Shown here piece by piece: positions 1,015 through 39,271 of a DNA stretch of 41,371 nt. The DNA is from a virus, in IMG/VR virus record IMGVR_UViG_3300015360_000085, positions 1 through 41,371 of that record; one strand, 5' to 3'. The translations under genes were made by a program, and so were the position numbers. The first letter of the stretch is position 1, and each line of letters starts with the position of its first letter. The notes below the pieces were generated by a model, which saw nothing but the letters and a program-made list of their open reading frames with translations, searched no databases and had not been told where the DNA came from.

Positions 1015-1273
1015 CAGTCTCGCCACCATGGCGAAAGAACTGGTTTCCCAAGACCCTGCCATGCAGAGGGCGCTCAAGGGACTGGTCGAGGAGTCGATCA
1101 AAGTGGCGCTATACACCATGAAGCATGGCAGTATGCCCGAGAAGATGGCCCTGATGAAGAACCTGACGCCCCACATGCTTGAGGCGTTGAGGACGACGCA
1201 GAAGAGTGAAGCGGACCAGGCGCAGAAAGACGCATACGAGCAGATCAGGAAGATGTGCAGGGGTGATGAATGA
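992..1273 (+). CDS. Putative terminase small subunit-like protein
   Basis: A protein of 93 aa, predicted almost entirely helical, with a charged C-terminal helix rich in Lys, Gln and Glu. The ATG at 992 is chosen over an upstream in-frame start at 875 because the upstream extension is Cys/Ser/Thr-rich shadow sequence inside the previous gene, and a GAGG-type site lies before 992. The stop overlaps the terminase large subunit start (ATGA), implying translational coupling. Size, helicity and position directly before the large terminase suggest the DNA-recognition subunit; no diagnostic motif is visible. Confidence 0.55.
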   Translation: MATPTRNDSLATMAKELVSQDPAMQRALKGLVEESIKVALYTMKHGSMPEKMALMKNLTPHMLEALRTTQKSEADQAQKDAYEQIRKMCRGDE

Positions 1274-3072
1274 CCAACGCCACCTACGACGCCAACGATC
1301 CCCTCTTCGCCGGTCTTGAGGACCACCCAGGGCTAGCACTCGTACGCAGTCACAACATCCAGCTAAAGCCACTTGTCTACCAACTGAAGATTCAGACGAA
1401 AGATCGCCGGATCGCACGCATTGGCGATGTCATCAACTGGGCACAAGAGGACCTGCTGAATGAGATTGAGACGCAGATCAATGAGAACAACGGGTCGATC
1501 CGTGTCATCATCCTCAAGGCTCGACAGATGGGCCTATCCACGATCGTTGAAGCGGTCATCTTCGTCCTGTCGGTGCTCTACGATAACTTCCAGTCCATGA
1601 TTATCTCCCATGAGTCCGACTCTGCCGAGCACATCCTCAACATGACGAAGCGGTACTGGGATACCTACCTGTTCAAGGACATGCATGATGAGAAGTACAG
1701 CGCCAGGAAGCAACTGTCATGGTCCGATCTGGAGTCGAACATCGCAGTGGCCACGGCGAAGAACACCAACGCTGGCCGCAGCAAGACCCTCCACGCACTC
1801 CACGCATCAGAGGTTGCATTCTGGGACAACCCGAAGGCTTTGGTGAGTGGACTCAGGCAGTCGTTCCCCTCATTCGGCATCACCATGATCGCATTGGAGT
1901 CCACGGCGAACGGTATCGGCAACTACTACCATGAGCAATGGGTGGAAGCTGAGGCGGGACGTTCCGAGTACAAGGCCAAGTTCTACCCGTGGCATCTCCA
2001 CCCGGAGTACACCCTGTCCTATGTGCCTGCCTCAGAGCAGCGCAAGTACAAGGCCGTGTCCAACCCTGACGAGGACGAACTGACGTTGCGCTCGATGGGG
2101 GTGAACGATGCCCGCCTGTTATGGCGCAGATATGCCATTGCCAACCTATGTGGTGGGTCGGTGGACACGTTCAAGCAGGAATACCCGGCAACTCCGCATG
2201 AGGCATTCTTGCAGACGGGCCGCAACGTGTTCCGCTTGCAGGACATCATGAAGCATTACAAGCCGATGCCAGGCGTTCGTGGCAAGCTGATCGACAAGCC
2301 CGACAACACTGTCGAGTTCATCCGTGATGCGAAGGGGCCACTCAAGATATTCCGTATGCCGGCAAAGGATATCAACTGGGGTGTGTATCAGATCGGTGCC
2401 GACCCGACGCATACCACTGTCGGAGACTATGCGTGCGGTCAGGTGATTAGCCGTCGTACTTTGGAGCAGGTTGCGGTGTTCCGACGGCCGATGGACCCCA
2501 CGAAGTTCGGTGAGGAGATGGCACGGTTGGGCCGGTTCTACAACTGGGCGCAGATCGCACCGGAGAAAGAGGGGCCGGGGTATGCAACGGTCGGTTATCT
2601 GGTTGGCAGCGGCTACCCGAACATCTACGAGTCTCAGAAGGTGGACAAGACGCCTGGCAAGGTGAACCATGATGTGTTTGGGTGGGGCACGAACAACTCC
2701 ACGAAGCATCTGGCTATCTCGACGGTTGTTGCATTCCTGTCTGAGGAGGTTCAGTCGTTCGGTGGCAGCGAGTTCGGTGTCGTTCTGCATGACGAGGACA
2801 CGTTTGAGGAGTTGAAGAGTTACGTGATTGATGACAAGGGTAACTTTGCGAATGGGAGCGGGGCAAAGTTCGATGATACGGTGATGGCCTTTGCCATTGC
2901 TTTGACGACGCATAAGTTTGAGCCTGCGTTGGTGACGTATTCGCCGGATTCGGCCCCTGGTGAGTTGGCTCGGAAGGTGTTGGAGTTGGTGGATCGTCCT
3001 GCCGTTCCGGGGGGTAGTGCTTTGCCTGACCGGGTGCAGGGAAGTTCGATGGATTGGGAGGAATGGAAGTGA
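1270..3072 (+). CDS. terL: Terminase large subunit (packaging ATPase-nuclease)
   Basis: A 600-aa motor that translocates phage DNA into the procapsid and cuts the concatemer. ATPase domain: a degenerate Walker A, KARQMGLST (residues 83-91), a Walker B-type segment HASEVAFW (about 178-185) with Glu181 as acidic residue, and a coupling motif ALESTAN (208-214). Nuclease domain (RNase H-like): first acid Asp378 in GADPT, a central acid near Glu432 in APEKEGPG, and a C-terminal acidic pair at Asp535-Asp536 in KFDDTVMAFA. Length is normal for the family. The start overlaps the preceding gene and the stop overlaps the next gene. Identification is secure; the packaging strategy (cos, pac or terminal repeats) cannot be read from this. 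Confidence 0.95.
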   Translation: MTNATYDANDPLFAGLEDHPGLALVRSHNIQLKPLVYQLKIQTKDRRIARIGDVINWAQEDLLNEIETQINENNGSIRVIILKARQMGLSTIVEAVIFVLSVLYDNFQSMIISHESDSAEHILNMTKRYWDTYLFKDMHDEKYSARKQLSWSDLESNIAVATAKNTNAGRSKTLHALHASEVAFWDNPKALVSGLRQSFPSFGITMIALESTANGIGNYYHEQWVEAEAGRSEYKAKFYPWHLHPEYTLSYVPASEQRKYKAVSNPDEDELTLRSMGVNDARLLWRRYAIANLCGGSVDTFKQEYPATPHEAFLQTGRNVFRLQDIMKHYKPMPGVRGKLIDKPDNTVEFIRDAKGPLKIFRMPAKDINWGVYQIGADPTHTTVGDYACGQVISRRTLEQVAVFRRPMDPTKFGEEMARLGRFYNWAQIAPEKEGPGYATVGYLVGSGYPNIYESQKVDKTPGKVNHDVFGWGTNNSTKHLAISTVVAFLSEEVQSFGGSEFGVVLHDEDTFEELKSYVIDDKGNFANGSGAKFDDTVMAFAIALTTHKFEPALVTYSPDSAPGELARKVLELVDRPAVPGGSALPDRVQGSSMDWEEWK

Positions 3073-3508: not shown

Positions 3509-5398
3509 ATGGCCAACCCTGCGTTCACGTCTCGCCCTTCGCCTGTCAACGGGCCGATGCCTGGTACGGGGAACGAGTTGCGTGGTGACAACATCAATGA
3601 GGATGCGGCGCTGGGCACCCCTTTGGCGACTTCCATCTCTGATGAGGGCAAGGAGTACCAGGTTGCTCAGACGGTTCGTCAGTTGTTCTACCGTGCCCGT
3701 GATGCGAAGCGTCCGATCGTGCAGCAGTGGCGGAAGAACTACCGTGTCCTGAACAACCGTCAGTGGACTGCCCGAGCCGAGACGTGGATGCCTGCCCCTG
3801 AAGTGTCGGAGATGTGGCCTCTGGTCGCTGCGATGGTGGCGTGGATGACGGATCAGCGCCCTGGTGTGGATGTCACTGTCGCCGCACCCTCGTTCGGTTC
3901 ATACGCCGATCACTACGACCGGGTAGCCGAACAGATGAACTCCCTACTCAACTCGTCTTTCAGTGTCAACATGGAGGATGCCGAGATTGAGAAGATGTTG
4001 TGGGACTGCCTGACATACTCGGTGGGCTACATGAAAACGGAGTGGGTTGCCACCCTGGCTGATGGCAAGGGTGACTCCAAGTTCCGGCGTGTCGATCCGT
4101 TCACCGTGTACCCGGACCCATACGCCAACAGCATGGAGGAAGCCGCCTACATCATCGAGGCGAAGCTGATGTCCATGGATGACCTGGATCGTGCCTTCCC
4201 TGGTGCTGGTGCCAAGGTGCAGGCGGGCATCACCGATGAGGTTGAGCAGCAGTCCACAAAGCTGGATGCGACGACCAGTTCGATGTCGCCCCGAGTGAAC
4301 CTGTCTCCGATCAGTGGGGCACCGTTCGCTCCGTGGGGGCCTTCGGGCCGCAACAGTGCCATGAGTGGGCTGTACCGTGAGGACCCGGTGACGATCGTTC
4401 TTGAGGCGTGGATTCGCACCTACCGTGTGATCACCCGTGATGAGGATGACTCGATCCCTGAGGGTGCCTGTCGTGTGGTGGACCGCTGGAAGTGTGTCGT
4501 GGTTGCTGGCAACACGGTGATCCTCGACAAGTTCGCTGACGAAATCTACGGCCATCCTCAGCACCCGTACTCCAAGATGACGATGTTCGACACTGGTGAG
4601 TGGTACGGCCCCTGCCTTGTTGAACTACTCACGTCCCCGCAGGAATCCATCAACCGTCTGCTTCAGTCGATCGAGATGAACCTGATGCTGATCGGTAACC
4701 CGATTCTGCTGAACGGCAACCGGACGAACGTTGGCGGCAGGCAGACGATCACGAACCGTCCTGGCCAGGTGCTCAACGGCAACAGTCAGGACATGGGTTG
4801 GATGCAGCCTCCGATGATCCACCCGGACATGATTCGGATGGTGGAGTTCTACGAGTCTCGCATGGAGACAATCTCCGGCCTCACGGCCATCATGCGTGGG
4901 TTCTCCACGACGGGCCGTAACTCCACCGATGTCATCTCGTCCCTTCAGGACAGTGCGTTCGTCCGTGTGCGGGCCACCCTACGCAACCTGGAGCGGTGCT
5001 TGCGGGATGCGTGCATGAAGAAGTGCGCCAACATCGCAGAGTTCTACACGGAGCCTCGGATGATCGCCATCGTCGGTCGTGAGGAGGGGGCGAACCTGAA
5101 GATGACCTTGCGGTCACGCCATTTCTACTCCCTTCCCACTGAGGACGGCGAGGAGCCAACTCCGCTCAGGTTCCAACTGCTTGCCGACGCTGGTTCGGAT
5201 CACCCGACATCTCGTCAGGCACGTCAGGCTCAGGCCGAGCGTCTGTTCGCCATGGGGGCCATTGATGTGATGGAAGTGCTCAAGGCCAACAACTGGCCGA
5301 ACTGGCCAACAGTGTCCAAGCGAGTGCTTGACATGCAGGCCGTGGCGGGGACTCTCGGCACGAACGGAACGCAGAGGCAGAAAGCCAGAGCACAGTAA
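3509..5398 (+). CDS. Portal protein
   Basis: A 629-aa dodecameric vertex ring through which DNA enters and leaves the head. It resembles portals of P22-like podoviruses: segment VDPFTVYPDP followed by an acidic helix with EEAAYIIEAK (residues about 190-215), a clip/stem region with YGPCLVELLTSPQESINRLLQS (here split by charge into two helices), and a long C-terminal helical part that ends Arg/Gln-rich. Length is right for the short-tailed-phage class. It lies between terminase and scaffold, as usual. No strong Shine-Dalgarno sequence precedes the ATG; a G-run at about 3489-3495 is the nearest candidate. Confidence 0.85.
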   Translation: MANPAFTSRPSPVNGPMPGTGNELRGDNINEDAALGTPLATSISDEGKEYQVAQTVRQLFYRARDAKRPIVQQWRKNYRVLNNRQWTARAETWMPAPEVSEMWPLVAAMVAWMTDQRPGVDVTVAAPSFGSYADHYDRVAEQMNSLLNSSFSVNMEDAEIEKMLWDCLTYSVGYMKTEWVATLADGKGDSKFRRVDPFTVYPDPYANSMEEAAYIIEAKLMSMDDLDRAFPGAGAKVQAGITDEVEQQSTKLDATTSSMSPRVNLSPISGAPFAPWGPSGRNSAMSGLYREDPVTIVLEAWIRTYRVITRDEDDSIPEGACRVVDRWKCVVVAGNTVILDKFADEIYGHPQHPYSKMTMFDTGEWYGPCLVELLTSPQESINRLLQSIEMNLMLIGNPILLNGNRTNVGGRQTITNRPGQVLNGNSQDMGWMQPPMIHPDMIRMVEFYESRMETISGLTAIMRGFSTTGRNSTDVISSLQDSAFVRVRATLRNLERCLRDACMKKCANIAEFYTEPRMIAIVGREEGANLKMTLRSRHFYSLPTEDGEEPTPLRFQLLADAGSDHPTSRQARQAQAERLFAMGAIDVMEVLKANNWPNWPTVSKRVLDMQAVAGTLGTNGTQRQKARAQ

Positions 5399-8984: not shown

Positions 8985-9018
8985 AGGGGCCAGGACTCAA
9001 CAGGGTCCTGGCCCCTTT
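8985..9018 (+). terminator. Rho-independent terminator after capsid genes
   Basis: A perfect 11-bp stem, GGGGCCAGGAC paired with GTCCTGGCCCC, has an 8-nt loop and is followed by TTT. It lies between the decoration protein and the next structural gene. It probably acts as a partial terminator that raises capsid transcript relative to downstream genes. The same sequence recurs on the other strand at 39215-39247. Confidence 0.8.
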
Positions 9019-23466: not shown

Positions 23467-24144
23467 TTACTTCAACAGTGCGTCGATCAGCTTGTTGGCG
23501 ATCACCTTGCCAATCCCAGGTACTTCCATCATCTGTTCCTTGGTCACTGTCCATGCGAGTGGCACCCCCTTGAAGTGCTTGATGATTGCCTTTGCCCTGT
23601 CTGTGCCCAGTCCGTCGAACCCTTGCAGTAGGTGTACGGCGTAGTCGTCGTTGGTTGCGTTGCCCCATGGACTGAACGCTGACGGTCGTCGCATGATTGA
23701 TGTGTGCTTGTCCTTGTTCGTCCACCGAGCGTACATCACCACTAGCTCCACCGTCTCGGTGATGTCCTTGGTGTACTCGATGTGCGCCCCTTCATTCATC
23801 ATCGACCAGAGCATTCCCTTCCACTGGCCTCTGGTGAACTGTTGACCCCAGCTATTCCACAACAGGTTCCCTGCTGTATCGAACTGCACCTTGCCCTCGA
23901 TGACGATCATTGGAATGGGGATGCCCGATGCACGCATCTGTGCAATCTCTTTGCTGATCCTGCCGTCACTGACACTGGCGATGAGGTCTTTCAACTCCTT
24001 GCGTTGCACGCCCCATAGCTGATCTTCACCGTTATCTTTGCCATACCAAACGACATCACACCCGAACCGTTCCGGCATCAGCGTGCTCTTGCCCAGTGCT
24101 TTCAACTGTTTCGGCTCTGTTGGTGCCACAAAGAACTCTTGCAC
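23467..24144 (-). CDS. ERCC4 (XPF/MUS81-type) nuclease with helix-hairpin-helix domain
   Basis: A 225-aa structure-specific endonuclease candidate. The nuclease core has Asp30 in FGCDVVWYG and GVQRKELKDLIASVSDGR (about residues 45-62), the position of the family's ERKxxxD motif, but with Gln47 in place of Glu. The C-terminal 60 residues hold tandem helix-hairpin-helix elements: LLQGFDGLGTDRAKAII and VPGIGKVIANKLI. Such enzymes cut branched DNA during recombination or before packaging. GTG at 24144 is preferred, with GAGGG just upstream; it overlaps the previous gene by 89 bp. Upstream in-frame residues are shadows. Confidence 0.8.
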   Translation of the reverse strand: MQEFFVAPTEPKQLKALGKSTLMPERFGCDVVWYGKDNGEDQLWGVQRKELKDLIASVSDGRISKEIAQMRASGIPIPMIVIEGKVQFDTAGNLLWNSWGQQFTRGQWKGMLWSMMNEGAHIEYTKDITETVELVVMYARWTNKDKHTSIMRRPSAFSPWGNATNDDYAVHLLQGFDGLGTDRAKAIIKHFKGVPLAWTVTKEQMMEVPGIGKVIANKLIDALLK

Positions 24145-24550
24145 GTTCCCTCGCTTTCTGATTCTTGTTGCGGACGTACTCCACCTTGTGGGCGACACAT
24201 ATCTCACAGTCGCAATGCATGCGATCCCATGCGTATCTTGTGCCGTGGGTCCACCTGGGTTCATCATTCAACGGCCTCGACTCAGCCAGGATTCGCCTGC
24301 GTTCACGCATCCGTTCAGCCTTCGCTGCAAGGCATGGCGGGCATGAGCACTTCCTGTCCTTGGCCCACCAGTACACCCCATGCTGGTCGGGGCCTTTCTT
24401 CTGTCCGTTCCTGTTGCTCTTGGGCCTCAACGACTTCAGCCCGAGGGTCGTCTCCATGTAGTTCAGACCCTTCAAGCATTCAGCCTGGCACTTGCGTTCG
24501 TTGGGGCTATGCGCTCGTTCGCATTCATCCCCATCAATCGGACACTCCAC
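24056..24550 (-). CDS. Tandem zinc-motif protein of actinophage type
   Basis: A protein of 164 aa with two copies of a pattern common in actinobacterial phage proteins: HGVYWWAKDRKCSCPPCLAA and HGTRYAWDRMHCDCEICVAH, each followed by a basic helix (RMRERRR; YVRNKNQKARERAR). The N terminus has further Cys residues (CPIDGDEC, CQAEC). Each copy has a His and three Cys, consistent with zinc binding. The GTG at 24550 has GGAGG 8 nt upstream and overlaps the 57-aa gene before it; GTG 24595 and ATG 24577 or 24565 are alternatives. Probably nucleic-acid binding; exact role unknown. Confidence 0.65.
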   Translation of the reverse strand: MECPIDGDECERAHSPNERKCQAECLKGLNYMETTLGLKSLRPKSNRNGQKKGPDQHGVYWWAKDRKCSCPPCLAAKAERMRERRRILAESRPLNDEPRWTHGTRYAWDRMHCDCEICVAHKVEYVRNKNQKARERARVLCGTNRAETVESTGQEHADAGTVRV

Positions 24551-24793: not shown

Positions 24794-25725
24794 CACATGT
24801 ACCAGCGAGCAAAGTCGGCAGGCGACGTGCGTGGTCCGGTGTACGAGGGCGGGTACACCGGTCCTACTCCGAGCAGGGTGAAATACTGGAGGAATCCCCT
24901 GTCTACAGGGATGCCGATGGCCGGTACTGAACCCTTGACGCCAGCATGTTCCAGTTCACCCATGAAGCTGAGCGAGTCGGCCCTCTGCTGAGTGGCGCAC
25001 CATTCAACGATGGTGCCATTAGTGAAGAACAATGCCAGGTCCATCTGCTGCCCGCTGTCAGTGATCCTGATTAGCTTCGTCATGCTGTCCTCTTCCGCCC
25101 CTGGTGTCCAAGGTGTGTTGGTGTCTGAGTAAGAGGGGCTGTATCGCCCCTCCCTGATCTTGGTCATGATCCCGACACCCGGGCAGGCGGTAGCACCAAC
25201 CTCCTGATGCCCCTTGACGGCGAGTTGCCGCTGCGTTCGCAGTTGGCCTTCGCCCACCAACCATCTGATTGACCTGTCCGCTGCTTCGGTCGTCGTGTCA
25301 GCACCATCGACAAGGCACAAAATGCTGAACGATGTGCTGTTGACTTCGGCATTGGCGGCGTTCCTCAATTCCCACCCCCTACCAACCCAGATTCCGCCAA
25401 GGTAGTCAACAATGAAGTTGTAACCGATACTGTAACCACGCTGACGTGCATACATCTGATGGATGGAGTTGATGTAGAGCGGCAAGACGCCGACTACCTC
25501 TCCGGGATCACCGTCGATGAGGTTGTCGTCAGCGGTGTAATGCATCACCACTTGGGTGATGCGGGTCCAGTCGGCTAGTGGTGCCGCCGTTCGTTGGAGC
25601 AGGTACCCGCTGCCAGGTACCCGTTGCCCCGTTTCGGCATTGATGCGGAACCGGTACGTCCCATCAACCGGGAACGACGATGGCATCCTGTTCCACGCCG
25701 ATTCCTGATGCACTGTCAGAGCCAT
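24793..25725 (-). CDS. Endolysin: N-acetylmuramoyl-L-alanine amidase
   Basis: A 310-aa peptidoglycan hydrolase that cuts the bond between muramic acid and L-alanine. Residues about 55-185 are an amidase_2/PGRP domain: MHYTAD gives zinc ligand His62, YNFIVDYLGGIWVGRGW gives the conserved core, and KGHQEVGATACPG gives His173 and Cys181. Residues 212-310 form a separate domain starting SMTKLIRITDSG, likely wall binding. There is no signal peptide, so release should need a holin. GGAGG lies 7 nt before the ATG, which overlaps the upstream stop (TGATG). It is placed among DNA-metabolism genes rather than beside the holin candidate at 21227. Confidence 0.85.
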   Translation of the reverse strand: MALTVHQESAWNRMPSSFPVDGTYRFRINAETGQRVPGSGYLLQRTAAPLADWTRITQVVMHYTADDNLIDGDPGEVVGVLPLYINSIHQMYARQRGYSIGYNFIVDYLGGIWVGRGWELRNAANAEVNSTSFSILCLVDGADTTTEAADRSIRWLVGEGQLRTQRQLAVKGHQEVGATACPGVGIMTKIREGRYSPSYSDTNTPWTPGAEEDSMTKLIRITDSGQQMDLALFFTNGTIVEWCATQQRADSLSFMGELEHAGVKGSVPAIGIPVDRGFLQYFTLLGVGPVYPPSYTGPRTSPADFARWYM

Positions 25726-26534
25726 CACACAACCTCCAGGTCCCAGCCAGCAACGTTGATCAGGTACTCATGAGCGAACGTTGACGTGGTGGAGTGGGCG
25801 TCGAACTCCACTTTCTCTTGCAGGTCCCGACCCCTGTCTTTGGTGGTGGTGAACCGCCACACGTCACGCTTGGGGTGATCCAGGTACAGGTTGGTGGCAC
25901 CGATGTACGGCAGTTGCTTCTGACCGGCAGGCTTCTGCCCGATGAAACCGAACTCTGCTTTCTCTGCTTCGTCGGCCTCTTTCCGCACTCCCGCCGACTC
26001 GCAGACAACGAGGATGTGTCCTGGCCAGCGCCGGTACTTGCCATAGAACCCGTCCTGGTACACCTTGTTGATGACCGGCCACGTCATGTCGGAGGTCAGT
26101 TCCTTGTTGAACTCCTTGATGTCCTTGGACTCTTTCCGCAACCGGGTCATGTGTACGCCGATGTCCTGTCCATGCACCTGGTTGGAGAACCAGGCTTGGA
26201 CCATGCTCCACGTCGTAGTGCCAGGGTCGATGACCAGCCAGTCATCCTCGGTCCCATGCTTGAGGAAGCTGTCCATCGTCTTGATGTACTCATCCCAGTC
26301 GGCCTCGATCGGCTCGATGATCATCCGATCTTCCAACTCCGGGTACTCGGTCTGGAGGATTCGTTCGTAGGCGAACGAGTAGTCCAGGTCCACGACGAAT
26401 GCTCTGGCGTCCTGGTGCATCTTCATGATCTGGAAGATCAGCGAGGACTTGCCGGTGCCAGCATGGCCGAATGCGGTGATCCGTTCCTTGATCCGGTCAT
26501 TGCCCGGGACGATCTTCATTTCCCTCTTAGCCAC
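25725..26534 (-). CDS. Sak4-like RecA-fold ATPase (recombinase/annealing ATPase)
   Basis: A 269-aa P-loop protein. Walker A is GHAGTGKSS (residues 23-31); Walker B is WLVIDPG with Asp103. This matches the phage AAA_24/Sak4 group, RecA-core ATPases that act with a single-strand binding protein in single-strand annealing or recombination-dependent replication. GTG at 26534 has AGAGGATC upstream at good spacing; ATG at 26520 has too short a spacing. Upstream in-frame codons are shadows of the next gene. The neighbouring Cas4-like and ERCC4 nucleases complete a plausible recombination set. Confidence 0.8.
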   Translation of the reverse strand: MAKREMKIVPGNDRIKERITAFGHAGTGKSSLIFQIMKMHQDARAFVVDLDYSFAYERILQTEYPELEDRMIIEPIEADWDEYIKTMDSFLKHGTEDDWLVIDPGTTTWSMVQAWFSNQVHGQDIGVHMTRLRKESKDIKEFNKELTSDMTWPVINKVYQDGFYGKYRRWPGHILVVCESAGVRKEADEAEKAEFGFIGQKPAGQKQLPYIGATNLYLDHPKRDVWRFTTTKDRGRDLQEKVEFDAHSTTSTFAHEYLINVAGWDLEVV

Positions 26535-26766
26535 GTTTGATCCTCTCCAGTGTTTCTCTGAGGATGGACACGGGAATGTGATCCCATCCAATTTGCTCGA
26601 ACTCTTTGCACAACCGTTCCAACACTTGCACTGCAATCTGAGGGGACTCCAACGTCTTGGCCGGTTGACGCCCTCCACCCGCCAGTAGTTCCGACAGGTA
26701 GCGAGCGTGTTCGTCCAGTTGGGCTTCAGGGATGGGGTCCTTGGCCCAGTCACGGATCGTTACCAC
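26527..26766 (-). CDS. Small helical protein before the Sak4-like gene
   Basis: A protein of 79 aa, mostly helical, with LDEHARYLSELLAGG and ending LRETLERIKRG. GTG at 26766 has GGAGG with 6-nt spacing. Both ends overlap neighbouring genes. No family recognised; a recombinase partner is possible from position. Confidence 0.6.
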   Translation of the reverse strand: MVTIRDWAKDPIPEAQLDEHARYLSELLAGGGRQPAKTLESPQIAVQVLERLCKEFEQIGWDHIPVSILRETLERIKRG

Positions 26767-26944: not shown

Positions 26945-27284
26945 TGAATCGCCTACCGGTCATGGGATGGATGTTTGCCAGCGCCAAGTCCTTAAGAGTC
27001 GCCATCATGCCGTTGGTTGCTACGGCATAGACGAAATCTTCAGGGACGTAGTGCAACGTGGCGTATGCCGCCAGGACTCCTCGGATGAACTCCGGTGATT
27101 CCTCTGCGTTGAACAGTTGCGCCAACTGGCGCAACGGCTCCGAATCGACAGGGGGCATAGAGACTTCCACCATGGTCAGGTAGAACCCCATGATTACTTG
27201 CTCTGGACCAGTGGCGTCCATCAGTTTCCTGAGCATGTCGGTTGCATCATCCTTGCCAAGCGGGCCGTACTCCTGGTCGCTCAT
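26937..27284 (-). CDS. 115-aa hypothetical helical protein
   Basis: A mainly helical acidic protein with no recognised domain; notable segments are LRKLMDATGPEQVIMGFYL and EFIRGVLAAYATLHYVPEDF. Start overlaps the nuclease stop (ATGA). Third-codon bias and coupling support coding. Role unknown. Confidence 0.65.
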   Translation of the reverse strand: MSDQEYGPLGKDDATDMLRKLMDATGPEQVIMGFYLTMVEVSMPPVDSEPLRQLAQLFNAEESPEFIRGVLAAYATLHYVPEDFVYAVATNGMMATLKDLALANIHPMTGRRFSE

Positions 27285-28249
27285 CGCTTCGCCCGTGGCT
27301 TGGGTGCCAGCTTCGCTTTCTTCGGCTTCACGGTGACCAGTGTGTAGTCGAATGGTTCCACCGTGTAGCCCTTGTTGTACACAGTGTGGTACTTCAGGTC
27401 GAACTCAGTGCCCTCCACATCGACCCGCACCACTTCATCGTCCTCCACGTTGGCTGCCGTCAGCCATGCATTGACACCCTGGTTCAGTTCCTTGACCCGG
27501 CTCTCGATCCCCTTGGCCTCACCAGTCAGGGCCTTCGCCTTCGCCTTCAACTCTTCCCGCTCACTGACGAGTGCCACCAGCGTTTCATCTGATGGCCTGG
27601 TTGGCGGCACGGCAGAGTCATCGGCATCGTGCAGGTAGAAGAACGGGCACGGGTACATCTGGACGTTGCATGGCACATCGTCAACCCGCTTCCCCTTGTT
27701 GACCAATGCCTCCAGATGGGCGACACGCTTGATGAGTCCCTTCATGGGGATCGGCGGCATGGAAAGGTGCTTGACTTCCACGTCCACGATCTGGCCGTCC
27801 TTGAACAAGCCGCCAACAAAGTCGCACTCTTCCATGCCCAGCCCATGCATGTAGGCCGACACCTGCCACGGATACCACGGCATGGCCTCCACACCGTTAC
27901 GCATGAACTTGCCCCACGTTGACTCACGAAACTTCTTCGCCTCAAACAGAGTGTTGTCCTGCGTCTTTCCGTCAGTGTGTCCACGGATGAACACACCATC
28001 GAGCACTTCCAACTCCACTTCCTGCTGCCCGCCGGACACGATTCGATCGTACTTGGATTCGTACATGTCGATGATGGACTGCTCAGCGTTGGTCCCCTCA
28101 TCCAGCACTTCCTGAAACCATGCAGGGTGTGCTTGAGGGGTGTAGAACTCTGCGAGTGCGATGAACATCCGGTCGCACATCATCAGACTGCTGGCCCGGT
28201 AGACGACCTTGCCGTCCTCTTCGTATCTGGATGGTCGGTTGTCGCTCAT
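27281..28249 (-). CDS. Cas4/RecB-family PD-(D/E)XK exonuclease
   Basis: A 322-aa nuclease. An N-terminal Cys25 (LMMCDRMF) precedes the core: RGHTDGK with Asp93, TLFEAKKF with Glu103 and Lys105, then a YPWQVSAYM motif with Gln129. The later VPCNVQMYPCPFFY has Cys194 and Cys201. The layout fits Cas4-like enzymes, in which N- and C-terminal Cys hold an Fe-S cluster, though only three clear cluster Cys are seen. A coiled coil (228-265) and a basic C-terminal tail follow. It probably resects DNA ends to give single strands for the Sak4-like ATPase. No cas1 or CRISPR array is present, so a CRISPR role is not indicated. Confidence 0.8.
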   Translation of the reverse strand: MSDNRPSRYEEDGKVVYRASSLMMCDRMFIALAEFYTPQAHPAWFQEVLDEGTNAEQSIIDMYESKYDRIVSGGQQEVELEVLDGVFIRGHTDGKTQDNTLFEAKKFRESTWGKFMRNGVEAMPWYPWQVSAYMHGLGMEECDFVGGLFKDGQIVDVEVKHLSMPPIPMKGLIKRVAHLEALVNKGKRVDDVPCNVQMYPCPFFYLHDADDSAVPPTRPSDETLVALVSEREELKAKAKALTGEAKGIESRVKELNQGVNAWLTAANVEDDEVVRVDVEGTEFDLKYHTVYNKGYTVEPFDYTLVTVKPKKAKLAPKPRAKR

Positions 28250-30830: not shown

Positions 30831-30875
30831 GCTTGCCTGCCTTCGTGAGTTGGTGCAGTGGTCTAGATATGCGAA

Positions 30876-30916
30876 ATGCCTGGCGACTAACCCTCGGGGG
30901 GTTGATCGCCAGGCAT
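30876..30916 (-). terminator. Long hairpin in the 30831-30992 gap
   Basis: ATGCCTGGCGA (30876-30886) and TCGCCAGGCAT (30906-30916) form an 11-bp perfect stem. The loop contains a further AACCC/GGGTT pairing. In the leftward direction the stem is followed by TTTCG. It may stop read-through from the genes upstream, or act as an operator. The shared 10-mer GTGGTCTAGA lies nearby at 30858-30867. Confidence 0.55.
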
Positions 30917-30992
30917 CTCGGTTGTCAGCACTTGCAGGAAGCGCCCTTACCTTACCTGTCCATCCGCCAGGGGTGCAACCTGGTTGTGGGGT

Positions 30993-31502: not shown

Positions 31503-32246
31503 TCAGGCACCACCAAACGTAGCCCAGATACTTCCCGGCTTCGATGACACGGCTGCCTTCTGGTACACCTTGTTGCCCATCACACCATCGACATCGAGTG
31601 CCGCCTCGCTGTACTCCTCGAAATCGGCGGCTGCTTCGGCCGCTTCGATGAGTGCCGTGCGGATGTCGTCGTCATCGACGCCGTAATCCTCGTCATCCTC
31701 GTCCGGTTCGGGCTTGGCCTTGGCCTTGGCTGCTGGCTTGGCTGCCAGCTTCGGCTTGGCCTTGCCCTTGACACTCGTCTCAGCCATGCCGTTGTAGTGG
31801 ACGGGGATCACCAGGTCTTTCTCCTTGCCGTCCTGCATGGTCAGCTTGACCGTGCCCATGTGGAACGACATGCCGTCGAGCCACGCTGCGTTGAACACCA
31901 GGTCAACGCCCGTCTCACGAACTTCCTTCATGAACTCGGCTGCGTTGTCCATCTTGGTCAGTGCATCCACGAACCGGCCGTAGTTCGACTGGTTGTTGAG
32001 GTTGGTCGGCTTGCCCGACGTGTGGACCAGCGTCGATCCCCGGTCGGCAGGCTCAAACGTCTTGCCGACGCTGTACAACTGCTTGGCATCCTCGCCCTCT
32101 TCCATGCCGAACGTGACGATGGCGACGCATGCTTCACCCTTGGCGTAGGTGGCGTCGTAGCCGAACTCGATGCTCTTGACCGTGACATCGGCATCCACCA
32201 TGGGCAGACCCGACGACAGGTTGAATGGGTTGAACTCTTCGCTCAC
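31503..32246 (-). CDS. Possible single-strand DNA-binding protein
   Basis: A 247-aa protein. Residues about 18-160 form a beta-rich domain (VDADVTVKSIEFGYDATYAK; ACVAIVTFGMEEGE) like an OB-type fold. A Lys/Ala-rich linker (about 160-180) and a strongly acidic segment with PEPDEDDEDYGVDDDD follow, then a C-terminal helix and SIWATFGGA. The acidic region recalls the partner-binding tails of SSB proteins, though here it is not at the very end. GTG start with AAGGGAG upstream; it overlaps the upstream stop (GTGA). The neighbouring helicase and a Sak4-like ATPase support an SSB role; not proven. Confidence 0.5.
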   Translation of the reverse strand: MSEEFNPFNLSSGLPMVDADVTVKSIEFGYDATYAKGEACVAIVTFGMEEGEDAKQLYSVGKTFEPADRGSTLVHTSGKPTNLNNQSNYGRFVDALTKMDNAAEFMKEVRETGVDLVFNAAWLDGMSFHMGTVKLTMQDGKEKDLVIPVHYNGMAETSVKGKAKPKLAAKPAAKAKAKPEPDEDDEDYGVDDDDIRTALIEAAEAAADFEEYSEAALDVDGVMGNKVYQKAAVSSKPGSIWATFGGA

Positions 32247-32422: not shown

Positions 32423-32658
32423 GTCTCTTCCCAGCATTGGGCGTGCATGACGGGACGATCCCCGCCGGGGAACCACGCAATGTAATCACACTCACTGAAC
32501 GTGTAACCACACTCCGGGCAGAGTCCCCCGTACTTCGCTGGAAAGATCATGGGCTTGTCCACCCGTGCCTCACGTTGGGCACGACCGTTGCAGATGACGC
32601 ACGCAGACACGGGACCCAGCCCATGGATGCACTCCTCTGAGTCCATGTCGTCGGTCAT
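32419..32658 (-). CDS. 79-aa zinc-finger protein
   Basis: Two Cys pairs in the N-terminal half (CIHGLGPVSACVICNG) and CPECGY plus a later C-x-H-x2-C (MHAQCWEE), consistent with two zinc sites. It overlaps the helicase stop (ATGA). It may be a helicase accessory or a nucleic-acid-binding factor; unrecognised. Confidence 0.65.
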   Translation of the reverse strand: MTDDMDSEECIHGLGPVSACVICNGRAQREARVDKPMIFPAKYGGLCPECGYTFSECDYIAWFPGGDRPVMHAQCWEET

Positions 32659-34286
32659 GTCTTGGGCCTACGCAACCATCTGAGGTCCCTGCGTGTGTCG
32701 ATGGCGGCACGGAACCATCCGGGGAACAACATCTGATGCTTGCGGTACAGGTTGGTGGCGAACTGGGAGTCGAGGATGTACGTCGTGCAGTAGTCATCCT
32801 TGTGCCTCACCCCACGCCCGCACATCTGCACCACATCACGGATGGTCTGGACGGCATACCATGTCGCCCCCTCGTTGCCCATCCGGCTCCGTGCGCTTAC
32901 CTGCCGATCACCGAGGCTTGGATACGGCACCTTAGCCAACACTTGGACCCGACATAGGTCATCCGGCAGGTCAATCCCACGTTCCATACTAGGAGCGAGC
33001 AGAACACTTCCTGGGGTCGCCTTGAACCGATCAAGCGCACCATGCCTATCTCGGCCACTGTCGTAGGTGATGATGTCACGACCAGGGACTCGATAACCGC
33101 CACGTCGTAGCTGATACGCAATCTGTTCAGTGAGGTCGTATGAGACAGTATGGATAAGGATGCGATCCTTTGGGTGGTTCATGAGGATGGCTTGAATGGC
33201 ATAAGACAGATCAACGACTGCTTCACCTTCCTTGATAGTCTTATAGGTGACATCAGCGATCGGAGCCATGATGACCGGACGATTCTCTGGTGGAAAGGTG
33301 GACGGTACGACGACTGTTGCATAGTCATACGGCAGACCGAGTGAGTCGGCCATCTCGTCGCTGCTGATGAGGGTTGCTGACATGACTAGCCATCTCGGGG
33401 CGTGCCTCCACAAGAACTTGGTGCCCATGCTGCTTACCTTGACAGGCTTCATCACGAACTGGTTGTCTTTCTCGTACTGCCGCAACCATAGCCCGGTGTC
33501 CTCGTCCAGATCGGGGTCGTCACGCAGCTTCAACTCACGCTGCAACTCCCCCATCACACGCACTGTCGCTTGCACGCACGCCTTCATGCCACGTTGCGCC
33601 TTCATGTCTCGCTCTGCCTTGGCCATCGGCTCAAACGTCTGGATGAAGTCGTCCATCCATGCGATGATCGTCGCCTTGCGTGCGCCTTTCTTCGGCGGCT
33701 CCATGCGTGCCATCTGCATGTACCTGATCGGCACCCGGTACTCCACGAACGACATCAGTTGAGACTCAAGGGTGTCGGCCTCGTCCACGATCACCAGGTC
33801 ACGACCGGAGAACCCGCCGACGTAGTTCGCTTCAGTCAGCAGGTAGCTGATGTTGGTCACCGCTAGCTCCGACCCCAGCGCCTCACGCTTGGCGATCTGG
33901 TACGGGCAACCCGCATGCCCGTCCTCGCAGTGGAAGCATGGGTCAACCGGACGCTTCGCTATGCAGTCGGCGGCAGTGGCGTTCGGGTTGGACTGAGTGG
34001 GGTAGTTCGCTCGCCCCTTCAGCACCTTGGCATACGGGTAGTCCTTGGCGAACTGATCCTGTAGTGCCTTGTCGGAGCACACATACAACGCATTGCCTGC
34101 GTTCTCTCGGCGGATCAACTCAGCGATGAGTGTCTTGCCTGTACCAGTGGGTCCATCGAGGAACACCACGTCGTTACCATCTTCGTAAGCCTCCATCACA
34201 TGGTTGACGGCGACAACCTGATGGGGCCGCACCTTGGTCACCCATGCGGGTAGTTCGGCTGCTTCGGTGACTGGATCGTTGGTCAT
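32655..34286 (-). CDS. DinG/XPD-like Fe-S helicase
   Basis: A 543-aa superfamily 2 helicase. Walker A is GPTGTGKT (residues 45-52); Cys108, Cys117, Cys120 and Cys127 have the spacing of an Fe-S cluster (ADCIAKRPVDPCFHC, then GC); DEAD box VIVDEADTLE (168-171); SATL motif MSATLISSDEM; motif VI QMCGRGVR. It unwinds DNA with 5'-3' polarity in known relatives. ATG 34286 is preferred over an earlier in-frame start whose N terminus is Pro/Ser-rich shadow sequence. In the absence of a replicative helicase of DnaB type, it may serve in replication start or recombination. Confidence 0.85.
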   Translation of the reverse strand: MTNDPVTEAAELPAWVTKVRPHQVVAVNHVMEAYEDGNDVVFLDGPTGTGKTLIAELIRRENAGNALYVCSDKALQDQFAKDYPYAKVLKGRANYPTQSNPNATAADCIAKRPVDPCFHCEDGHAGCPYQIAKREALGSELAVTNISYLLTEANYVGGFSGRDLVIVDEADTLESQLMSFVEYRVPIRYMQMARMEPPKKGARKATIIAWMDDFIQTFEPMAKAERDMKAQRGMKACVQATVRVMGELQRELKLRDDPDLDEDTGLWLRQYEKDNQFVMKPVKVSSMGTKFLWRHAPRWLVMSATLISSDEMADSLGLPYDYATVVVPSTFPPENRPVIMAPIADVTYKTIKEGEAVVDLSYAIQAILMNHPKDRILIHTVSYDLTEQIAYQLRRGGYRVPGRDIITYDSGRDRHGALDRFKATPGSVLLAPSMERGIDLPDDLCRVQVLAKVPYPSLGDRQVSARSRMGNEGATWYAVQTIRDVVQMCGRGVRHKDDYCTTYILDSQFATNLYRKHQMLFPGWFRAAIDTRRDLRWLRRPKT

Positions 34287-34326: not shown

Positions 34327-34884
34327 TTACCGGCGGCGCTTCCGGGTATCGGTGGCGTCAGACATAGCGGACATGGCATCGGCCACGGCATCGCTAATCA
34401 GGTCATGGTGACCGGGAGCTAGCTCTTGTTCATCGAGCATCTGCTGCAACCGTTCGATGTACACGTTCAACCTCGACCAGTTACGGGAGGCAATGCATAT
34501 CTCAAGGACTTCGTGGAACTTATCGACATCGTGCTTGATCTGCTGATCGAGCGCCAAGTCGGCATCCATCTGGGCACGCCACACATACAACTCCAACGCC
34601 ACCGGGTCGATCGTGGAGGCGGGGTTGGTGTGCAGGAAGTGCAGACGATGAACGATGGCATCACGCACGAATGCTTGGCGTGATCGTTGATAGCCAGGGT
34701 TGTCATCAACCGCTCTGGCGATCAGTGCCTCCAACGATGGAGGCAGCTTCGTATTGATCTGCTCGTAGTGCCCTTTGGAATCCGTGCTGTCCGTATAGAG
34801 CTTGTTCGGGTCGTAGTTCGACCGGACAATGCTGATGACGGTCGGACCAGTCGAGCCTTTGGACGGCTGAGTGGTGGTAGCCAC
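34327..34884 (-). CDS. Ribbon-helix-helix-like DNA-binding protein
   Basis: A 185-aa protein. Residues about 41-85 (INTKLPPSLEALIARAV, then QAFVRDAIVHRLHFL) have the strand-helix-helix form of MetJ/Arc-type regulators. A helical C-terminal half follows and a basic tip (DTRKRRR). GTG start with AGGGAGAAC upstream. It lies directly beside the palindrome-rich non-coding region 34885-35418, so autoregulation or binding at an origin is likely. A helicase gene follows 40 bp later. Confidence 0.6.
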   Translation of the reverse strand: MATTTQPSKGSTGPTVISIVRSNYDPNKLYTDSTDSKGHYEQINTKLPPSLEALIARAVDDNPGYQRSRQAFVRDAIVHRLHFLHTNPASTIDPVALELYVWRAQMDADLALDQQIKHDVDKFHEVLEICIASRNWSRLNVYIERLQQMLDEQELAPGHHDLISDAVADAMSAMSDATDTRKRRR

Positions 34885-34999
34885 TTATGTTCTCCCTGCT
34901 GCTGACCCCGGGTGCTGACGCCGGGGAACGGAGCATATCGGGGGTCCCGGGGCCTTGGCAAGGAACACCGAAACAACCACTGAGCGTGACAAAGTTGGG

Positions 35000-35062
35000 C
35001 GAAACGCTTGACTGTGACGAATGTCACCACCTAATCACGTTTCCCCTGGTCACAGCGTTTCG
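35000..35062. repeat. Inverted repeat with GTGAC motifs
   Basis: CGAAACGCT (35000-35008) and its complement AGCGTTTCG (35054-35062) flank two further GTGAC/GTCAC elements. Four GTGAC-type motifs lie within 70 bp (34986-35053), an iteron-like arrangement for a DNA-binding protein. Confidence 0.6.
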
Positions 35063-35127
35063 GCTATCCCTGCTTTGAGAACGACTCCCAGAAGCACCAG
35101 GAAACGGGTGTTTTTGGGGGGTCAGAT

Positions 35128-35232
35128 CGTCAAGCATGAAAGTTGCTAACGGGGGGTGCCTCCCACTAGGCTCTAGGTCAGAGCCTTGTGGGAGGTACCC
35201 CCCTACTTTCCTGGTATATGGTATGCTTGACG
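35128..35232. repeat. Nested giant palindrome
   Basis: Core 35151-35203: 23 of 24 positions paired, arms GGGGGGTG and CCTCCCAC and AGGCTCT with their complements, loop AGGTC. Outer arms: GAAAGT (35138-35143) with ACTTTC (35205-35210) and CGTCAAGCAT (35128-35137) with ATGCTTGACG (35223-35232). The nesting is asymmetric (12-nt bulge on the right). It may form a cruciform in DNA or a very stable hairpin in RNA. Confidence 0.7.
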
Positions 35233-35358
35233 TTGACACACCTATCCGATACCAACCCCCCCCCTTGACAGGCGGCGACCACAAATGGTTCCATGCCTCC
35301 TGTCTGTCTCGCCCCATCCGGCTGGAGACATCCGCTCGCCCTTGCCCGGTGAACCGAC

Positions 35359-35390
35359 AAAGGCCCGGTCCCTCCCAGGACCGGGCCTTT
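35359..35390 (-). terminator. Bidirectional terminator
   Basis: AAAGGCCCGGTCC pairs with GGACCGGGCCTTT around a 6-nt loop. It ends the transcript of the gene at 35419-35637, with T-tract for the leftward direction, and could also act rightward. Confidence 0.85.
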
Positions 35391-35418
35391 GCTCACCAGT
35401 GGTATCGGTGTACCGGCA

Positions 35419-35637
35419 TCAACCCATCCGGCGAAGCACCTCGTCAATCAGGGCGTCAACATCCCGCTCTGTGTACCTGCCCTTGTGCAGCGCTGCACTC
35501 TTGAGATGGTGAGTCAGGCCAGAATCGCTCATCGCTGCAAGCTTGACCCTTACCTCCCGCCTCATCTTCAGCCGGTCCTCTTGGTCCAGATGAGTGAACC
35601 CGGAGAAGAACCGGCTACCTCCCGCCTTGTCAGCCAT
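35419..35637 (-). CDS. 72-aa basic hypothetical protein
   Basis: A small protein starting MADKAGGSRFFSGF with helices KMRREVRVKLAAMSDSGL and TERDVDALIDEVLRRM. It overlaps the DUF932 gene stop by 8 nt. Basic and helical, possibly nucleic-acid binding; no family recognised. Confidence 0.65.
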   Translation of the reverse strand: MADKAGGSRFFSGFTHLDQEDRLKMRREVRVKLAAMSDSGLTHHLKSAALHKGRYTERDVDALIDEVLRRMG

Positions 35638-36775
35638 GAGTCGCTACCGGCATCTTGATCCCCTCGATGCCGTTGACGATGGTCCAGAAGTCATCCGCCT
35701 CTTTGGCGAAGCTGCCGTTCAGCGTTCCGGTCATGATCCGATCGACGGCGTTGTCGTTCTGAGGCTTCATGTGCTCGGTCCATGTGTTGACTGCCTGGAA
35801 TGCTCCGAGCATCGTGCCGTGCCAGGTTGCCGCTCTCGGGTCGATGTGCCACATGTTCATGAGGGCTTCCTGCTTGTTCGATGCGATGGTGATGCCACGC
35901 TGGTTCTTCACACGCTGCCCGTTGGGACCGGCCTCGACTTCGGGGACGGGGATCGGGATGAGTCCGTCCACGATGGCCTTGAACTGGCGGTCCGTGACCT
36001 CGACATCGACCAGGCCGTCCACCCATGTCGAGAACTCCTCAGCGTCCTCGTACACCAGACCGAGAGCGTCCCGAAGCAGGCCGATCTTCGACAACGACCT
36101 GGACGAGTGCTTGATCTTCACCCGGTCCGTGGCGTTGTGGATGGCAGCGGCGACCGAGTTGTCACAGACGCCGATCATGTTCGTCATGAAGTACGCCGAC
36201 GATGCCGTGGTGTCGAGGCTGGTTCGTGCCAGCAGGGTTGGCTTGAAGTCCAACTTGGCTCTTGCCGTTGTGACTCCGTTGGGAAGGGTCATGCAGACAT
36301 AGGCCACACCGCCCTGTCGCAAGAGTCCAGCGCTGTCGATGCCCAACTCGCCGTCTGCGATGGTGGCCGGTCCGTCGATCAGCCACTTGTGGTAGCCGTG
36401 AATCTGGTAGCTGTCCACTCCAACGTAGGAGAACACCGTGTCGTTCGTGGGGTTCATGATGGCCTTGCGCTTGGTGTCACCCACCCAGCGGAACGGGTTG
36501 CCGTATCCATCGGTGCCATCCGCCTCATCTGCCGAGCACGGCACCTTGAGCATCACCGGGGCCTCGATCGGTTCCCAGTTGAACAGCACCCTGTCCACTT
36601 CATCGACCGGGATGAACCCGTCGTAGGCGTTCTGGAAGCCTTCGCTCTGCCACCACGCCCTGTAGCTGCCGTCTGCCTGGAGGATCATCCAGTTGTTGTT
36701 GACCCACTTGGCCTTGTCGTTGACATTGCCCAACATGGTGTACATGTTGAGGTCTGCGATCGTTTCCCTGCTCAT
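35630..36775 (-). CDS. DUF932 family protein
   Basis: A 381-aa protein that fits the DUF932/TIGR03299 phage-plasmid family: an N-terminal MSRETIADLNMYTMLG, a middle SYVGVDSYQIHGYHKW, and a C-terminal ATWHGTMLGAFQAVNTWTEH block with NDNAVDRIMTGTLNGSF, the usual family ending. Members occur widely in phages and mobile elements; the biochemical role is not known. The ATG at 36775 has AGGAG 8 nt upstream. A promoter candidate lies at 36832-36860 and a terminator at 36890-36923 isolates it from the genes upstream, so it is probably highly and separately transcribed. Confidence 0.75.
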   Translation of the reverse strand: MSRETIADLNMYTMLGNVNDKAKWVNNNWMILQADGSYRAWWQSEGFQNAYDGFIPVDEVDRVLFNWEPIEAPVMLKVPCSADEADGTDGYGNPFRWVGDTKRKAIMNPTNDTVFSYVGVDSYQIHGYHKWLIDGPATIADGELGIDSAGLLRQGGVAYVCMTLPNGVTTARAKLDFKPTLLARTSLDTTASSAYFMTNMIGVCDNSVAAAIHNATDRVKIKHSSRSLSKIGLLRDALGLVYEDAEEFSTWVDGLVDVEVTDRQFKAIVDGLIPIPVPEVEAGPNGQRVKNQRGITIASNKQEALMNMWHIDPRAATWHGTMLGAFQAVNTWTEHMKPQNDNAVDRIMTGTLNGSFAKEADDFWTIVNGIEGIKMPVATHG

Positions 36776-36831
36776 TGCCCAGTCTCCTGTTTGTTTGCCG
36801 AGGTTGTCTCGGTGGTTGCTGACTGCCATCC

Positions 36832-36937: not shown

Positions 36938-37099
36938 TCACATAGGGAGATTGTGTGCGTCTGAACTGTCCAACTCTAGGTCGGCCAGTGCATCGTCTAG
37001 GGTCCGCTCAAGCCAATGCTTGTTCAGCTTGAGCGGACGCTGCACGATCCATGGTGCTGCCTCGATGGGGTGGGAGGGTCGTGCTCTGGACTTGCCCAT
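36938..37099 (-). CDS. 53-aa hypothetical protein
   Basis: A small protein starting MGKSRARPSHPIEAAPWIVQ, basic at the start, acidic at the end (LADLELDSSDAHN). It contains a perfect 12-bp inverted repeat in its coding DNA (37002-37013 and 37027-37038), with arms GTCCGCTCAAGC. The next gene upstream ends 18 nt away. No family recognised; coding status is supported by position and open frame. Confidence 0.5.
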   Translation of the reverse strand: MGKSRARPSHPIEAAPWIVQRPLKLNKHWLERTLDDALADLELDSSDAHNLPM

Positions 37100-39138: not shown

Positions 39139-39171
39139 AAAGGGGCCAGGACCCTGTTGGGTCCTGGCCCC
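39139..39171 (-). terminator. Second tandem terminator copy
   Basis: GGGGCCAGGAC paired with GTCCTGGCCCC, followed by TTTGC in the leftward direction. Nearly identical to the copy at 39215-39247 and to 8985-9018. Confidence 0.8.
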
Positions 39172-39214
39172 TAGTGCCTGCCTGCCTGCCTTGCCTGCCT
39201 GCCTCAGAAACGAC

Positions 39215-39247
39215 AAAGGGGCCAGGACCCTGTTGAGTCCTGGCCCC
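39215..39247 (-). terminator. First tandem terminator copy after the zinc-ribbon protein gene
   Basis: On the leftward strand it is identical through the whole stem-loop to the left-arm terminator at 8985-9018, and it is followed by TTTGTCG. It closes the transcript of the gene at 39272-40069. Confidence 0.85.
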
Positions 39248-39271
39248 TAGTGCCTGCCTTGCCTGCCTGCG

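Follow-up and report, generated by a model that had tools for sequence, protein, structure and literature searches.

Ribbon-helix-helix (RHH) autoregulators such as MetJ, ParD, CopG and Arc/Mnt have an RHH-type domain and clustered direct or inverted repeats upstream of their own operon, and RHH proteins also act as partition or relaxosome factors. Orf56 of the Sulfolobus plasmid pRN1 is an RHH protein. In pRN1, orf56 and orf904 form one operon in which a repressor gene is followed by a replication-enzyme gene, and a stem-loop of ~100 nt, whose sequence is not conserved, is essential for replication (PMC4234260). Iteron-type origins (lambda ori, P4, RSF1010) have short repeats by an AT-rich segment, together with genes for a DNA-binding protein and a helicase.

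A locus that resembles each of these in part lies in IMG/VR record IMGVR_UViG_3300015360_000085, an uncultured phage of 41,371 bp, which was analysed over its whole length and is called the window here. Structural genes, among them terminase (1270-3072) and portal (3509-5398), lie on its plus strand and are followed by early genes on the minus strand, where an RHH-like gene and an Fe-S helicase gene adjoin a gene-free gap with a long palindrome and clustered short repeats. The locus is like pRN1 in having an operon of a putative repressor and a replication enzyme and a ~100-nt stem-loop kept in structure and not in sequence (PMC4234260). It is not a pRN1-type replicon, since in pRN1 the stem-loop follows the replication gene, whereas the window's palindrome lies upstream, and the pRN1 enzyme is a primase-polymerase with an SF3 helicase, whereas the window has an SF2 helicase of the DinG/XPD type. 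Compared with iteron-type origins, the window has few repeats, no known initiator family and no primase among the main proteins searched. No DNA similarity to known phages was found for the gap region. The gap is probably the switch, and possibly also the replication start site, of the phage DNA-replication genes.

Anatomy of the gene-free gap

The gap spans 534 bp (34885-35418) between ORFs that run on the same strand, as described in an earlier note on this DNA, and it contains G/C runs. The 105-bp nested palindrome proposed in the same note is present at 35128-35232, with a core of two 24-nt arms (35151-35174 and 35180-35203) around a 5-nt loop and perfect outer arms of 10 bp (CGTCAAGCAT at 35128-35137 and ATGCTTGACG at 35223-35232). 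In the core, 22 of 24 positions are Watson-Crick pairs and one is a G-T wobble, which accounts for the 23 paired positions counted earlier. With a score of 18, this core ranks above every other inverted repeat in the genome; the runner-up in the window scored 14, and the top scores in 25 dinucleotide shuffles of the whole genome were 10-15. The single-stranded DNA fold of all 105 nt has -37.9 kcal/mol (z = -10.6), and none of 200 shuffles folded as well. A 16-nt seed from the palindrome matched two unrelated contigs, which was taken as chance. Two more imperfect inverted repeats of 22 bp are present in the early region (30872-30920 and 36992-37048).

The short repeats that the earlier note had placed at 34986-35062 were likewise found there: GTGAC/GTCAC occurs at 34986, 35014, 35023 and 35049, accompanied by a 9-bp inverted repeat (CGAAACGCT at 35000-35008 and AGCGTTTCG at 35054-35062), and four such motifs fall within 70 bp at just one further place in the genome. 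These are candidate binding sites for the RHH protein. GAAACG is present four times in the gap and ten times elsewhere in the window, and repeats cover more of the 350 bp that precede the RHH gene than they do in shuffles (z = 4.2). No single short motif is as prominent here as in the gaps of the relatives G028 or G009: 28 of 402 other stretches of the window equalled or bettered the gap, which counts against an operator. Upstream of the RHH gene, AT content peaks in the 60 bp at 35195-35255, which have 47% GC, compared to 59% for the genome, and overlap the upstream side of the palindrome.

Signals for transcription can also be proposed. A sigma-70-like candidate promoter of the RHH gene, TTGCCA-18-TATGCT, lies on the minus strand at 34932-34961, and its score was reached by none of 200 shuffles and none of 206 contig windows. 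A perfect 14-bp stem-loop at 35358-35391, with the ends AAAGGCCCGG and CCGGGCCTTT, was taken as the putative terminator of the upstream operon. Read along the minus strand, the gap thus presents the stem (35391-35358), the AT-rich segment with the palindrome, the GTGAC and GAAACG repeats, the promoter-like sequence (34961-34932) and the start codon at 34884. Since the palindrome falls between the putative terminator and the candidate promoter, it is probably outside the mRNA and would act as DNA. As an intrinsic terminator the palindrome itself was rejected, having no T-run after the stem-loop.

Elsewhere in the window, a 32-bp hairpin (AGGGGCCAGGAC, 8 nt, GTCCTGGCCCCT) is present between ORFs in three copies (8985-9016, 39141-39172 and 39217-39248), near late genes and near early genes, with a chance expectation of 0. 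One copy is kept in L003, a contig of 98% identity, and the hairpin could be a shared terminator or a repeat element.

The RHH-helicase gene pair and its operon

The gene that begins at the gap encodes a protein of 185 aa with a GTG start (34327-34884, minus strand) that has no match to a curated family. A model of its N-terminal domain, built from an alignment of nine relatives, had just two PDB matches, the RHH proteins MetJ and ParD, with weak E-values of 1.1 and 6.4; when a model of all 185 aa was compared with PDB folds, the helical remainder of the protein swamped the result, which was uninformative. The N-terminal domain is therefore of the RHH type to the extent of these weak matches, in keeping with the ribbon-helix-helix-like gene that the earlier note had seen beside the gap. 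The long helical C-terminal part, the lack of a curated family match and the helicase partner set this protein apart from the known RHH autoregulators. Close relatives of the gene were found neither in cultured phages nor in genomes, and among 2.9 million viral contigs only in G009.

The next gene encodes a helicase of 543 aa (32655-34286, minus strand; the open frame extends to 34391). With four invariant cysteines (108, 117, 120 and 127) and a Helicase_C_2 domain, it is an SF2 Fe-S helicase of the XPD/DinG type; the earlier note had named it an Fe-S helicase. It shares these features and PHROG 2488 with the DinG/YoaA/XPD helicases and differs from them in falling far under the NCBIfam equivalog cut-offs and in its place in a phage replication/recombination operon. 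Further minus-strand genes of this operon encode a conserved protein with no function assigned (31503-32246, in nine relatives), a RecE-like/Cas4-type nuclease (27281-28249), an AAA_24/Sak4-like recombinase (25725-26753) and an ERCC4-domain nuclease with a helix-hairpin-helix (23467-24267). On the same count of relatives, the helicase is conserved in 21, the RecE-like nuclease in 17, the Sak4-like recombinase in 20 and the ERCC4 nuclease in 19. In this conserved gene set, the operon is headed by the RHH protein and the Fe-S helicase and includes recombination genes. The search of the main proteins, which covered the small ORFs in part, revealed neither a polymerase nor a primase.

On the other side of the gap, a 72-aa ORF with no family match (35419-35637, minus strand) ends just upstream and is preceded by a gene for a DUF932 protein (35630-36829, minus strand). 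The latter is most similar to DUF932 proteins of Rhodococcus and other actinobacteriophages (~30-36% identity), hinting at an actinobacterial host; a scan of genomes with the helicase as a host search gave short partial matches only.

The same locus in relatives

Conservation of the region in relatives had been suggested as a check, and the search yielded no close relative of the window whose sequence includes the gap. G009, a contig of 41,748 bp with similar size and layout, was reached via the portal protein, and a wider set of ~20 uncultured contigs was gathered via a helicase alignment (helicase 35-52% identical), with genes called by a crude codon model. These contigs have a common plan, in which an upstream gap is followed by an RHH-like gene, the XPD/DinG-type helicase and then the nuclease, Sak4-like and ERCC4 genes. 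The RHH-like gene is immediately upstream of the helicase gene in nearly all of them, and the genes of the operon follow in the same order; for the most distant relatives (L037, L057 and L066), RHH homology rests on position and weak patterns. The gaps have no common sequence. What is kept is the position of the gap and its character as a site of repeats or a palindrome, while the sequence differs. A gene set and a cis region are thus defined for a ~40-kb phage family without close cultured members, of which G014 and G028, having direct end repeats of 127 bp and 123 bp, are probably complete genomes.

In G009, where the RHH homologue is 32% identical over 168 aa, the gap has a 26-bp palindrome with 96% complementarity and a 2-nt loop, which is the best of its genome and unrelated in sequence to that of the window. 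CCTAATCACG is found in both gaps, and sequence sharing between the two was not above that of random windows (P about 0.15). Three tandem 12-bp units of the GTACCTATCGGA type are present in G009 just upstream of the RHH start (L026:14538-14575). The top inverted repeat of the contig falls in the gap in six of 21 contigs, or five of 20 without the window, and no palindrome was present in the gaps of G014, G019, G022, G024 and G030. For five of 20, P is 0.005, 0.03 or 0.08 if the gap makes up 5.7%, 9% or 12% of the non-coding DNA, and because P depends on the share counted, the placement of palindromes in the gaps is suggestive and no more.

The motif pattern is stronger evidence. Many gaps have 3-9 copies of a motif of their own that hardly occurs in the remainder of the contig, such as (gap/rest) GTATAC in G028 (8/1), GGTATAC in G029 (9/4), TAGGTAC in G009 (4/0), GCCTAGC in G012 (5/1), GGTTAAC in G018 (4/0), ACCCCGTCA in G020 (4/0) and GTAACAC in G026 (4/0). 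In a comparison with every other 400-bp stretch, the gap came first in G020, G028 and G029 and no lower than third in G012, G018 and G026, and repeat coverage was higher than in shuffles in ~10 of 19 gaps. A lineage-specific motif nearly confined to the gap fits co-evolution with a DNA-binding protein encoded next door. AT-rich DNA is also placed regularly: in ~13 of 21 contigs, a 60-bp segment of the gap region comes close to the highest AT content of the whole contig, and in 10 of 12 genomes no more than 25 bp separate the palindrome from the 60-bp segment of the gap that is richest in AT (4.3 genomes expected, P = 0.001; with the window left out, P = 0.003). Taken together, these results support the view that the region is a cis element of non-random make-up linked to the RHH-helicase gene pair. 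In the G029 gap (L066:5180-5275), upstream of the RHH-like gene, DnaA-box-like TTATCCACA and TTTTCCACA and near matches form a cluster in which GGTATACC repeats are interspersed.

Operator, origin and other readings of the gap

On balance, the gap appears to be an autoregulated promoter-operator of the replication/recombination operon that is read by the RHH protein. Transcription of the upstream operon would end at the 14-bp stem-loop, and the strong sigma-70-like promoter would start the RHH-helicase operon. As the first product, the RHH protein would bind the clustered repeats of the gap, meaning the GTGAC and GAAACG inverted repeats and probably some of the palindrome as well, and build a nucleoprotein complex that tunes its own operon; that the protein binds, that the promoter is active and which way the operon is regulated are inferred, with autorepression the most likely. 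The palindrome and the adjoining AT-rich segment would work as DNA and probably not as RNA, and the binding sites would evolve together with the RHH protein. Consistent with this reading, the first gene of the operon encodes the RHH-type protein, and repeated short sites are present upstream near the candidate promoter, if more weakly in the window than in G028, G029 and G009. The candidate sites of the window extend up to ~300 bp upstream, in contrast to those of the known RHH autoregulators, and the palindrome, ~190 bp upstream of the promoter, is far for a simple repressor site, which counts against an operator. The earlier note had also suggested a master control region, and control of many promoters is unsupported, as in the relatives the gap motif is almost confined to the gap, a pattern that fits local autoregulation or an origin better than a genome-wide regulon. 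An operator of this kind would provide a natural series of sites that change along with the RHH protein, usable to decode RHH specificity.

An origin and an operator are not mutually exclusive, and the origin with initiator and helicase that the earlier note had proposed is a possible but doubtful reading. The RHH protein would mark the repeats and palindrome, the AT-rich segment would open, and the Fe-S helicase and the host replisome would be loaded. The non-random cis element with its RHH-helicase pair upholds part of that proposal, and the proximity of AT-rich DNA to the palindrome, its frequency in the gap regions, the DnaA-box cluster in G029 and the analogy to the pRN1 stem-loop (PMC4234260) may be added in its favor. 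Against it, the window showed neither a GC-skew switch at the site nor strand asymmetry at four-fold sites, although the absence of a switch does not exclude an origin, and the detrended skew minimum is at or near the gap in G024 and G026 and elsewhere in most relatives. DnaA boxes were absent from the window's gap and from those of most relatives, G029 being the only genome with a cluster; promoters are normally AT-rich too, the AT segment of the window is mild, and XPD/DinG helicases are best known for repair. It is more doubtful still, though conceivable, that this is an undescribed type of phage origin, set in an uncultured family without a polymerase or primase among the main genes searched, in which an RHH initiator on fast-evolving repeats and a palindrome passes to an XPD/DinG-type Fe-S helicase. 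If the gap is an origin, such a helicase would have a role in starting phage DNA replication. A role of the palindrome as RNA, that is, as a terminator, attenuator or stabilizing hairpin in the RHH-helicase leader, would agree with the very stable minus-strand fold (z = -7.4 for a 376-nt stretch) and is unlikely, given that the terminator-like stem upstream and the best promoter downstream should leave the palindrome untranscribed, that no U-run follows it on either strand and that no Rfam match was found. The long palindrome with nested arms, and the partition and relaxosome functions of other RHH proteins, would also suit a DNA-processing or segregation site, such as a telomere-resolution palindrome or a recombination, packaging or centromere-like site. 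This is very unlikely, since no integrase, protelomerase, relaxase or ParA was present among the proteins searched, the terminase gene lies elsewhere, several relatives lack the palindrome, and its neighbors are the RHH/helicase and 72-aa ORF/DUF932 genes, unlike a protelomerase telomere site. That the palindrome is an effect of chance or base composition, with the G/C runs of the gap easing pairing, is hardly credible in view of the shuffle tests and the syntenic palindrome in G009.

With regard to the preferred promoter-operator, a small ORF that by eye is helix-turn-helix-like is present upstream of the gap in several relatives (L061, L064), and control by two regulators may occur there.
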